Translations under genes and position numbers: made by a program
In this document: positions 7,951 to 63,267 of the stretch, in pieces
How the letters are laid out: each line of letters opens with the position of its first letter
Numbering within the stretch: position 1 is the stretch's first letter
The notes under the pieces: model-generated
Seen by the model: only the letters and a program-made list of their open reading frames with translations
The model's database searches: none
Told to the model about the DNA's origin: nothing
Source: Saururus chinensis
Taxonomy: Eukaryota; Streptophyta; Magnoliopsida; Piperales; Saururaceae
Reading direction: 5' to 3'
Assembly (NCBI GenBank): GCA_035235625.1
Contig: CP141149.1
Location: 16,805,893-16,869,892, forward strand
Length of the DNA: 64,000 bases

Positions 7951-8516
7951 TTGGGCACAATTTTCTACGTAGAAATGATGCCTCTCACGTGGGATTAAAA
8001 TTTGAAGTCCCATGTTGAGATGCCTTTTGTTTGTTTGAATTTTTTAATAATTACTTAAGGTTGTGGCCTTCCTTACTTGTATTTAACATCCACTGTTAAG
8101 TTTACTAATTGTCACATAAATAATTAAAAATGTCAATTTGAGCGGGTTTATCATCTCCCATCTCCGTTTGAGATGCTCTAAACAAGTTAATTAGGACATT
8201 GTTTTGGAAATCTTGAGAAGTTAAATTCGTCAATTGTACTTTCTAGTCCATTATATTAAATGCTATTTTTGTACTTTAGAATTTATATCAAGACTTCAAA
8301 AATATTTTTAGTACATTTTAATTTTTTTACCCAAATAGTGGAATAATTTGAGAATTCAGCAGCTGGTATGGGCAAAATCATTATCCTTTCAAGAAAAACA
8401 TCATCCTTTCAGAATCAGCCCCATACTGGTGTCAGTGATGATTATTTCATTGATTCAAGATCGCCCATATAACATTTTGGGAATGAAAACTTCAGTTCTC
8501 AACATTGATCACAAGG

Positions 8517-8522
8517 TTTATT
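8517..8522 (-). terminator. Candidate polyadenylation signal AATAAA
   Basis: Read on the minus strand, AATAAA lies about 136 bp after the stop codon of the RNase-like gene, a normal distance for a plant 3' UTR. The assignment rests on motif and position only. Confidence 0.4.
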
Positions 8523-8657
8523 AACAGATGGAGCCAACCAAGCACCAACACCCTCTACCTCACCCTTACTCCACTGAAAAAAACTCAAAAAAAAAAAGAC
8601 ACCAAACCACTCCTTGAGGTAAACTCATCTTCTAAGTGAGAGCCTGAACATCAAGTG

Positions 8658-9931
8658 TCACTCGGACTCAGGCATTCCAATCATGTCTGGCTTGGACTGA
8701 AAGTATTGCAGCTTGAGCATATCGGCAGTGAAGGGGTCAAAGATGACAGTCGCGGGGCAGTTGGAGACGTACTTAACAGGGCAATCGATGATGTTGGTGG
8801 CAGTGCTGTCGACACAAAGGTGGATGCCTTTGATGTTTTGGCTGCTGGTTGATCCACACTCGATGGCCGCCGTTGTTATCTTAAGACCTTCATTGATGGC
8901 CCTCTCCACTTCACTCAGTTTGTAGGTCTTGTAGATGGTTGGCTGAATATCTGCAAAAATCCTCTCCAATCAATTGAAACCAAAATGTCTCTCACAATTA
9001 ACACTGAAAGCTACTAACTTCTTAATTACCTCTCCTGCATCAAAACATTTGGCATGCCATTGTTTTTGCTAATTTTGTGCTAAGTACCAAATCACATGGG
9101 ACTGTTTTAGTCTGTTTTTTTGGGGTATTTTACTCTTCAAGCCCTGCTTGGTATTAATATGCACCAGTTATAATTGTTTTTGGTTTGAATGGCTTACAGA
9201 TAGAGGTTTTGGGGCTTACCCTTGAAATCCAGCTGGTCCATGATATTGGCCTTCCTGCGGACCTCCAGAGCCTTGGTGAAGTAGGTTGTCTGGCTTAAGC
9301 CAGAGCACTTGCCATCCATATCCCAAGCACTCGCCCAGAAGCTGGTACCATCGTTGCTTGGGCACTTGAGGCTCGGCCAGAAATTACTCATGTTACTCTT
9401 GAGGCCCTCAATCTGCTCCATACATTTTCATTAATATCAAACATATCACCATTGATAGCCTAAATCTAAATTCCTTCAATCAAGTCATTATTGTACACAA
9501 ACTGATGAAAAGACATCCAGTATTCCAGTGGACCATTCTAAGGATGGCTCATCAATATTTGAGATTATGAACTGGAAGATCTTACATCGGAATCGCTGAA
9601 TGAGGAGAAGCTGCAGGATCTGCTAGGGCCCCATCTGTTGTAAGCAATGAAGCGATTAAGGATGAAGTCAAATCTGGGGTACCCAGTTCTTTGCTGGCAA
9701 CACACTGGGGTGGGCGTATTACAATAACCTCCAGGCCACTGCCATGAAAATACACAAATTATCATCACCCGGAAGAAATGATTTGCAGAAATCAGTTAAA
9801 GAACAAAGTTAGAGATTAAAAAAAAAACATACAACAAGAAGGAGGCGGAAGTATTCTATTTGGGCGTGACCAATTGTAGCAAAGGAGACTAGAAGCAGGA
9901 GGAGCAGAGGTCTTGAAGGGAGGGGAGCCAT
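8658..9931 (-). CDS. RNase T2-family S-like protein, predicted catalytically inactive
   Basis: Four exons on the minus strand, 9931-9833, 9738-9586, 9412-9220 and 8950-8658, join in frame (phases 0, 0, 1) into 245 residues, typical for plant S-like RNases. Residues 1-23 form a signal peptide with a Leu-rich core, so the protein should enter the secretory pathway. WPGGYC (34-39), the CC pair (46-47) and later cysteines in LKCP, GKCSG, IECG, HLCVD, IDCP and SNCP match the family scaffold. Active family members carry a histidine in an IHGLWP-like site and again in an HEWxKHGTC-like site. Here the first reads ILNRFI, with Asn61 at the histidine position. The second reads SAWDMDGKC (112-120), with Ser, Ala, Met and Asp replacing His, Glu, Lys and His. 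RNA cleavage is therefore not expected. Similar inactive RNase-related proteins are known in plants, for example as storage proteins. All four introns boundaries are GT-AG and there are no stops, so it looks maintained. Confidence 0.9.
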
Positions 9932-9990
9932 GCTTTGGGTCAGTCTGGACAAGGTTAGGAAATGATGATAAGAGCTTCTGGTTCCACTGG

Positions 9991-10000
9991 TTATTTATAG
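9991..10000 (-). promoter_or_regulatory. TATA box of the RNase-like gene
   Basis: CTATAAATAA on the minus strand lies 60 bp upstream of the start codon at 9931. This would give a 5' UTR of roughly 30 nt and supports both the chosen start and an intact promoter. Confidence 0.65.
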
Positions 10001-10333
10001 AGTGAAGGCCAGCTGCTAGCATTGATGATGAATCTGTCCCACTTTCTTGAATATCATATTGGCAGCTCTTATCACGCAGACCAAACTTTTTATTTATTTG
10101 GTTGTTAACAAGCACGCAGATCAATTGTGAGGCTACATCATCTTTAATAATCACCATCTTTAATAATGGGATTAAAAGTCTAGCAGCATATGCCTTGGTA
10201 CACGTGGGGCACGTGGATTTTGGATCCATTGACTGTGTGGGCATTTTCACATGTGCACTTTATTTCTTTTCCTACCTTATCGGCTTATCCACCGCTTTGT
10301 AGTTTCTACAAGAAAAGGTTGTGATTTTTTATG

Positions 10334-10549
10334 AGGGAAGTTTCCCACCCCAACTCGAGGAAGAGTTTTTTTAAGCTCTTTGCTTACTGTGAGCCGTAAG
10401 AAATATATGTAGAGTATTTATTTTTAAGATTGACTATTTATATTAATGTGTATTAGTATATATATTATTGATTTTAAAAATAAATATTTTACATATATTT
10501 TTTGTACTCGGCTCAATATCAAGAGTGGAGCATGAAAAATACTTCCCCC
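10334..10549. mobile_element. Fold-back MITE upstream of the RNase-like gene
   Basis: The two halves are largely inverted copies. The inner arms run about 10390-10427 and 10471-10514 (GAGCCG, then 'aatatatgta' and 'tatttatttttaa'), and the outer tips are GGGAAGT and its partner ACTTCCCC. There is no coding capacity. It sits about 400 bp upstream of the RNase-like start codon, inside the likely promoter region. I could not define a target duplication. Confidence 0.5.
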
Positions 10550-10891: not shown

Positions 10892-11169
10892 TATGATATC
10901 CCCTACTGGCTAGCCTTCTGGCGGCCGCCATGATCTTATGGCCATAGAGTTGACCAGTGTTGAAAGACAACCTCGTATAAAACCCAACATGGTTTTGGAG
11001 GGGGGCGACCCCCCCCCCCCCCCATCTAATAAATGTACAGGTCTTTGGGGGGTTGCCCCCCTCCAAAACCATGTTGGGTTTTATACGAGGTTGTCTTTCA
11101 ACACTGGTCAACTCTATGGCCATAAGATCATGGCGGCCGCCAGAAGGCTAGCCAGTAGGGGATATCATA
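10892..11169. repeat. Perfect 115-bp inverted repeat (hairpin) with 48-bp spacer
   Basis: The left arm 10892-11006 and right arm 11055-11169 are exact reverse complements over 115 bp. They include GCGGCCGC and begin and end with TATGATATCCCC and its complement. The spacer holds a run of about 17 C. The same short open frame appears on both strands only because of the symmetry and is not a gene. Possible origins are a fold-back transposon, a hairpin RNA locus or an inverted duplication. Confidence 0.9.
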
Positions 11170-61256: not shown

Positions 61257-63267
61257 CTAATTACAAGACTCATGTTTCAAAGGATATATGGAAAAGAAAG
61301 GTAAATCGATTTACCTTTAAACCTTTATTGAATGCTTTCCTTATACACAATATTTTTTAACATAATTTATACTGCTTTTGTATAGGACCGTGGATCTCTA
61401 CGATGTCTACATCATCATAAGAAGCTTGTGGAATGGGATTCTCATGATAGTCTAATAACTCCATTGATAGAGTCTAGCGGTTTGTGTCCATTGACTTACG
61501 TATTTTATAAGACCATTAATAGGATGTGGATCTCTTCATTGGTTGAAAGGTGGTATCTGGAGACTAATACTTTTCACATGCCATTTTGAGAGATGACTAT
61601 CACCTTAGATGATGTCCAACAATTAATAGGGATTCCAGTGAGAAGACATGTTGTGTTGACCCCTGATTTTAATAGTAATGAGTTGGTCGATTTATGTGTC
61701 AACGCCCTAGGGATTGACAAGGAAGAAATTGAAGCTCAATTGAGCAAATGCAAAGGAAAGGGCTTGACAATGAATTGGTTGCGGGATACATTTCGACAAT
61801 TACCAAAGGATGCTACCCGGGAAGATATTCATTGTGCTGCCCGAGCTTATATTCTATATTTGTTAGGGTGCACAATCATGTGTGATAAATCAGGAACGAA
61901 AGTTCCGAGTAAGTATTTGAATTTACTTATGAGCGTGGATAGCATTGGCAAGTATGCATGAGGAGCAGCTGCCCTTGCATTCTTATATCGACAATTGGGG
62001 ATTGCATCAAGAAAAGAAGCACAACAAATTGGTGACTATCTTACATTGTTGGAGGTATGATAACATTCGTATTGTTATTTGTTATTTGTTACTAGATCAT
62101 ATATTGCCTAGAGATCTAATAATGGATTTTCTTATATTATAGGCATGGTCATATGAACATATTAAAATTGAGAGATCGGTCCCCAATATCTTGTATGAAA
62201 AGGGGCAGCCACGAGCCTTACTCTGGAAGGGCAATATCTCGCAACCAATCAATCCTGCACATAAGCTAATTAAATTCAGGGAGGCTCTTGATCATTTAGA
62301 TGCGCGAGAGGTATAATATGTTAATTTCATTTTCATTGATTGCAATTATAACAAGAGTTTATAACAATGATCTAGTATGAAAATTTTCAATTTTAAAAAT
62401 AGCAAGATGATAACGTCCATGTGTATTGCCTCATAGGTTATATGGAACCCATACAAAGAAGAACATGCGCATTATCCACAATCTAGTAATTCATTGTACT
62501 CGGGTTTCCTTTATTGTTTTCAAATTAGGGAACCCTATAATCCTACAAGAGTACTAAGACAGTTTGGTTTCATCCAAACAATCCCTCCACCACCACCCCA
62601 GCCAATACCCAAAGGTTCTAGCAGGGGTGAGCATGCAAAGGGGTACAAACTTGTGTATGATGCAAACGTAAATATTTGGAAGCAGAACAATAGGCATACA
62701 TTGCCTTCCAAAGACTATTGAAACCTCAGTAAAAATCCATGGGAGTGTGCACTTGATTACATTCAATGGTATAAAACAGTTTCACACCCCTTGGTGCAAA
62801 ATCCGGTTGGCCAAGTTTATGCGTTGGACTACACAGGCCAACAGACAAATGAAGAAGAATGGGTCATTATGTTAGTGAATTATTGATGGGCAAGTCTATT
62901 TTCATTTCTATATTAATGCTTTGTATTATGCAGTTTTTCCACAAGAAAAAAGCAATTGCCTTGTTACAAGACTCAATGACGGCTCTTCAAGGCAATGAAG
63001 GGAAGAGAAAAGTAAGCTTAGCACTTGAAGAGCTCCTTTACGATGAACCTGGTCCAAGTATCAATGACACTGGAAACAGAAGGGCAACTTGAGTTAAAAC
63101 TAAAGAAGTGAAAGGAAAGGGAAAGCGGGTTTCTAAATAGCCTCAAATTGTTTGTGTTTGTTGAGACATTTTAATGTCAGTCGTTTGTTAGAGACATTCA
63201 AATTGTTTGAGTTTGTTGAGACATTTCAGCGTTTGTGTATTATGAATGATAATTGTTTTGACATTGA

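Follow-up and report, generated by a model that had tools for sequence, protein, structure and literature searches.

The window analysed here is a 64,000-nucleotide stretch of the Saururus chinensis genome (G000:C10:16805893-16869892; the genome comprises 516,460,831 bases in 11 contigs). It contains an RNase T2 gene in which every catalytic residue has been replaced, and the question raised by this locus is what such a gene is kept for. Catalytically dead plant RNase T2 proteins are common, and very few have an assigned job. That the window gene is dead but maintained we regard as highly probable. The best explanation we can offer is that it encodes a secretory member of a catalytically dead clade, kept for a non-enzymatic role and sorted by its tail to the vacuole for storage or stress; as a whole, this explanation falls a little short of an even chance. 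Its last part, the vacuolar storage or stress role, is proposed by analogy and is more tentative.

A complete class I gene without catalytic residues

The gene lies on the minus strand, a point that the earlier note did not give, and is organized as follows. Exon 1 (9931-9833) carries the ATG, the signal peptide and the first segment of the protein (residues 1-33), ending at the phase-0 donor GTATGT. Exon 2 (9738-9586) encodes residues 34-84 and contains the rewritten first active-site segment. Exon 3 (9412-9220) encodes residues 85-148 plus the first base of codon 149, and exon 4 (8950-8658) encodes residues 149-245 and the TGA stop codon. The three introns have canonical splice sites (GTATGT..GGCAG, GTAAGA..GAGCAG and GTAAGC..TTGCAG, read on the minus strand), and splicing yields a single open frame of 738 nt, 245 amino acid residues plus the stop. 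A TATA box, TATAAATA (9992..9999, minus strand), is found 68 nt 5′ of the ATG, and an AATAAA at 8517..8522 on the same strand is, from its sequence, a possible polyadenylation signal.

A spliced alignment with tobacco RNase NW, the query being the mature part only, independently recovers exons 2 to 4. The alignment overruns exon 2 at the 5′ side, does not reach exon 1, offers an alternative NAGNAG acceptor ending at 9416 that would add one Gln, and ends at 8721, leaving most of the C-terminal tail uncovered. The protein matches the Pfam Ribonuclease_T2 profile (PF00445) with an E value of 1.9e-31 over profile positions 2-188 of 188, and its score is above the curated cut-off of the Ribonuclease T2 superfamily (110.1 bits versus 26). 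A signal peptide with cleavage after G21-H22-A23 was judged by eye, and all ten family cysteines are in the RNase NW columns. The claim of the earlier note that the gene is complete, with four exons, a TATA box, a signal peptide and the cysteines of its family, is upheld. A T2 fold, predicted from the sequence, is presumably kept as well.

The active paralogs L031 and L034 have the same intron phases as the window gene, 0, 0 and 1, and the first intron is in phase 0 in all eight models measured, dead and active. Exon 3 is 193 nt long in the window gene and in the five other dead genes measured; in two active genes it is 208 and 199 nt. Class I genes have introns at positions 2, 5 and 9 (pattern I-D), position 2 being known only from class I (PMC5598434); the position numbers of the window introns were assigned by us from the layout described there.

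To the active-site list of RNase NW we added Glu93 and Lys96, which we take to belong to it. The former CAS I of the window protein (9643..9666, minus strand) reads F58-I-L-N61-R-F-I-A65, where the active paralogs have F-x-I-H-G-L-W-P, and the former CAS II (9305..9337, minus strand) reads W110-A-S-A-W-D-M-D-G-K-C120, where they have W-x-H-E-W-x-K-H-G-x-C. Comparison by columns with RNase NW, the site numbering being taken from the accessible text of PMC9762611, shows a replacement at each of the five catalytic positions: H39 to N61, H92 to S112, E93 to A113, K96 to M116 and H97 to D117. These are exactly the replacements named in the earlier note. Neither the CAS I His nor any member of the CAS II His-Glu-Lys-His set of an active RNase T2 is present, and, judged from its residues, the window protein should be unable to cleave RNA by the T2 mechanism.

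The surroundings of the gene are described briefly. A near-perfect palindrome occupies positions 10892-11169, about 0.9 kb upstream of the TATA box, with 123-nt arms that are 99% complementary and a 32-nt spacer. When an arm was searched against the genome, only those two places matched; therefore, it is apparently no repeated element; a local fold-back duplication and an assembly artefact are both possible origins. A fragment of a plant mobile domain (PMD) protein lies at 61590-61961 on the plus strand (E 6.7e-16).

Dead and active relatives and their descent

Genome searches with the Pfam profile (32 matches) and with the window protein (31 matches) were joined by us into 18 places. These numbers are lower bounds, and the 18 places are not the whole T2 family, as class II genes, with their many short exons, did not surface. 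Twelve of the places are of the dead type, eight of them complete and four degraded or incomplete, and six are of the active type. The complete dead genes are the window gene on C10, L044 (C9, 23.55 Mb), L035 (C2), L042 (C5), the group L037, L038 and L039 (C3, 46.14-46.20 Mb) and L041 (C3, 46.31 Mb). The start of exon 2 was not recovered in L040, and L043, L046 and L047 contain stops. The complete active genes are L031, L032, L033 and L034. Two further active-type places, L036 (C2, 57.45 Mb) and L045 (C10, 17.42 Mb), were modelled incompletely; they are near copies of the active L033 and are apparently broken or truncated, with later exons unrecovered or altered. The search with the window protein revealed no close copy of the window gene in the genome. 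As a separate observation, the genome has 100 Cupin_1 matches, with genes clustered at C9 35.57-36.42 Mb and C8 18.08-18.85 Mb that we take to be germin-like.

The window gene is not exceptional in the extent of its loss. In every complete dead gene at least four of the five catalytic residues are gone: H39, H92, E93 and K96 are kept by none of the eight, and a His at H97 is found in L041 only. Nine of the ten cysteine columns are occupied in L040 and L041, the total count in L041 being ten. The earlier note held so thorough a rewriting to be rare; besides the eight genes here, 91 of 711 plant T2 sequences in the survey of PMC5598434 are reported as dead or without an essential His, class I accounting for 67, spread over nine clades, so the claim is not supported. 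We also looked for new catalytic-like residues in the dead clade. Residue 2 aside, V217 is the sole residue shared throughout six dead lineages and missing from the active rows, so no new active site is apparent.

Is this loss old and shared, or has it occurred repeatedly? Two trees bear on the question. The first, without an outgroup, included RNases NW and LE and 12 dead rows, among them three degraded pieces (L040 from CCFP on), and all 12 fall on one side of a branch with support of 100/99. In the second, the three degraded pieces were removed and NT, CalsepRRP and trichomaglin were added; it had no class III rows. With CalsepRRP and trichomaglin as the class II outgroup, trichomaglin being assigned to class II from its grouping with CalsepRRP, the nine dead rows form a clade at 96/94, and the active class I rows, those of tobacco and tomato included, are its sister at 93/91. 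The window gene joins the class I rows at 100/99 against this outgroup.

The support for the dead clade falls to 67/58 without the window row, and the AU test does not reject an alternative topology that places L035 and L042 among the active rows (p-AU 0.072). Because of the latter, a single old loss of catalysis is the favoured reading, short of proof; the dead clade may also be drawn toward the outgroup by long branches. We suggest that catalysis was most likely lost once, before the members of the dead clade split, and that the window gene probably inherited its loss from the ancestor of this old clade. A recent loss private to the window gene was considered and rejected, as the rows closest to it in the tree are dead without exception.

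Constraint on the frame and the shared C-terminal tail

A dead enzyme may be on its way to becoming a pseudogene, and the earlier note had called for dN/dS along the window branch. Over 181 codons of the 12 complete genes, a single-ratio model gives an omega of 0.188. On the window branch, an omega of 1 is rejected, the free estimate being 0.04 (2ΔlnL 7.12); the four-class model gives 0.11, and the range by model is 0.04 to 0.22, with a dS of 1.2-6 by model that is near saturation and makes omega imprecise. A separate ratio for the window branch is not needed over the single ratio (2ΔlnL 0.72). For the dead genes overall omega is 0.22 versus 0.16 for the active genes, and three classes are not significantly better than one ratio (2ΔlnL 4.1, 2 df). 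In a neutral simulation with substitutions only, 2000 runs per distance, the frame came through intact in a single run at 0.3 substitutions per site and in none at 0.5, 1.0 or 1.2. The rejection of neutrality and the simulation agree with the proposal of the earlier note that the open frame reflects selection for a non-enzymatic role.

The dead genes share a further character. The four complete active genes end in FPSF or FPPF, nine residues past the last cysteine, and the DNA 3′ of their stop codons contains no comparable reading frame or tail. All eight complete dead genes extend by 18-32 residues at the C-terminus. The extension of the window protein, T223-ADMLKLQYFQSKPDMIGMPESE-245 (8661..8729, minus strand), has 23 residues. 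Near the C-terminal end, I-x-M is found in seven of the eight complete dead genes (window, L035, L042, L037-L039 and L041) and in none of the four complete active ones, and T-[AY]-D-M-L is common to the tails of the window, L035 and L042. When tails were shuffled for five selected lineages (window, L035, L042, L041 and L037), I-x-M occurred in all five in 0 of 200,000 trials; the motif was picked after viewing the tails, L044 was excluded, and L037 and L041 are partly dependent. In L044 the I-x-M tail is missing and the protein ends in NDEL, which we consider reminiscent of ER-retention signals. Our literature search, largely of papers outside subscription, found no report of a tail common to dead class I proteins, and the shared extension with I-x-M appears to be new here.

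A tail that follows the last cysteine of a secretory protein might be a sorting signal. The NPIR consensus is given as (N/L)-(P/I/L)-(I/P)-(R/N/S) in PMC12796998, where C-terminal vacuolar determinants (ctVSD) are described as ending in hydrophobic residues, the last two, and an acidic tail (VL43) is not sorted. NPIR-type signals are usually N-terminal, serve the lytic-vacuole route and tolerate little change (PMC4057694, in the text available). By eye, the fit to NPIR is three of four positions in L037-L039 (NPIE) and L042 (HPIR), two of four in L041 and L035 and one of four in the window (PDMIGMPESE), which ends P-E-S-E, an acidic end and not the hydrophobic one of a ctVSD. Since the window tail is barely NPIR-like and its end is acidic, vacuolar sorting is suggested for the clade and, with less force, for the window gene.

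Storage, defence and other possible roles

The solved structures most similar to the window protein are those of RNase NW/NGR3 (1vcz, E 6.1e-39), RNase NT (1iyb, 3.5e-31), tomato RNase LE (1dix, 2e-29) and CalsepRRP (1.5e-14). The window protein resembles the class I S-like RNases NW, NT and LE in its ten cysteines and its position in the tree, and differs from them in having all five catalytic and all three B1 residues replaced and in its 23-residue C-terminal extension. CalsepRRP (1jy5), from rhizomes of Calystegia sepium, is likewise described as a secretory T2 fold without activity, and both it and inactive rice RNases have been proposed as storage proteins (PMC5598434 and PMC5520845, as far as their available text goes). 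By sequence, the window protein is like such a CalsepRRP-like storage protein in its lost catalytic residues and its kept cysteines and T2 profile. However, CalsepRRP is placed in class II in PMC5598434, is the most distant of the four by E value, and in our alignment keeps the Glu, Lys and last His of CAS II (LAYEWAKHG), none of which the window protein has.

Nearer in class are the grass ‘monocot inactive cluster’, with OsRNS4, OsRNS5 and others, in which one or both catalytic histidines are absent, and a clade of Caryophyllales sequences, also class I and dead, with the histidines absent; both are compared here by description only. OsRNS4 and OsRNS5 are tandem copies (PMC5598434, PMC7793952) and are reported to respond to stress and phosphate (PMC7793952), and for a rice RNase that is putatively inactive and responds to zinc deficiency by induction a storage role has been suggested (PMC5520845). 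The dead class I clades in the survey include one of 37 Poaceae sequences and the Caryophyllales clade of 14, for which a basic shift in pI is reported (PMC5598434, in part). No such shift is seen here, the pI being 4.3-7.6 for dead and 4.6-8.5 for active proteins. Ginseng major protein (GMP), an inactive member of the T2 family with a reported storage role, differs in that it is treated under class III and keeps a catalytic His (PMC5598434). The portions of PMC9250077 and PMC7994793 that were available hold nothing further on dead members. Dead plant RNase T2 proteins are thus already known as a kind, which the window gene joins.

We propose the following course of events for the window gene and its relatives. 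After the loss of catalysis, the dead clade would have been retained for a non-enzymatic role of a folded, disulphide-bonded protein. The tail, which has I-[EGR]-M close to its end and is NPIR-like in some paralogs, would direct sorting from the Golgi to the vacuole, where the protein may build up in a storage or stress role, in line with proposals made for CalsepRRP and the inactive rice RNases. Storage by nitrogen enrichment was considered separately and rejected, the nitrogen content being no different between seven dead and four active genes.

A defence or interaction role is the alternative that survives best, although we think it unlikely. The dead fold would be a secreted scaffold for binding a pathogen molecule, an RNase or a receptor, with a diversifying surface. 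Tandem copies on C3 diverge fast, and between L037 and L039 (46.14 and 46.20 Mb) dN is about equal to dS over the whole gene (0.107 and 0.113, by counting). Exon 1 of this pair is identical and exons 2 and 3 are 84-87% identical, more different than the introns (89-94%), a pattern of either fast protein change or patchy gene conversion. The recent C3 branches have an omega of 0.71, indistinguishable from 1 (2ΔlnL 1.47). However, dN does not exceed dS with confidence in L037/L039 (bootstrap of dN minus dS, -0.063 to 0.045), L037/L038 is constrained (dN 0.021, dS 0.061, by counting), and the window gene has no close copy in the genome. The lectin-like role raised in the earlier note finds no support, as Pfam gave RNase T2 alone at E values up to 1.

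Less probable still is a nucleotide-binding remnant, that is, a window protein that no longer cleaves and would bind a base in its B2 pocket (Tyr38, Ser98, Leu99 and Phe109). Four of the five B2 residues are kept (Y17 as Y38, S78 as S98, L79 as L99 and F89 as F109, with Q12 replaced by V33), against none of the five catalytic residues and none of the three of B1 (W42 to I64, N44 to Y66 and W50 to S72); this distinction between B1 and B2 goes beyond the earlier note, whose suggestion of an RNA-binding role is weakened by the loss of B1. The base-stacking Tyr17/Phe89 pair occurs in the window protein and in none of the eight other dead rows compared, L035 and L042 having the Tyr only and L040 a gap at Tyr17. 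But the B2 count is unremarkable beside the rest of the protein. Six active rows have 83 invariant columns in common; the window protein keeps 39 of the 74 outside the substrate and catalytic sites and three of the nine at these sites, a difference that is not significant for the window protein alone (Fisher p 0.31).

That the gene is simply decaying, its constraint past and its intact frame that of a recent survivor, we consider quite improbable. Four dead-type relatives are already degraded or incomplete, as noted above for L040, L043, L046 and L047, but on its long branch the window gene retains its start and stop codons, its three introns and its ten cysteines, and the rejection of neutrality and the near absence of surviving frames in the simulation, already at 0.3 substitutions per site, argue against it. 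Finally, an RNase still working through an unusual catalytic apparatus or through splicing that restores the histidines, for which the kept cysteines and most of the B2 site might speak, can be set aside as extremely improbable, given the absence of His, Glu and Lys at all five catalytic positions and of the four CAS I and CAS II histidine patterns from six frames of 8300-10400, so that splicing there cannot restore the motifs within one exon.

Returning to the dead clade, part of it degraded, part constrained, and with a common tail, two questions follow from it: the destination of the tail, and whether catalysis was lost once long ago or many times recently. It is tempting to propose that the dead genes are one ancient class I branch that predates the split of this plant from the Solanaceae, in whose ancestor catalysis disappeared and a conserved C-terminal targeting peptide arose, a possibility that we regard as rather doubtful. 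If true, the dead genes would make up a subfamily of their own, one of secretory pseudo-RNases, as against scattered independent losses, and the window gene would be the most diverged complete member in this genome.
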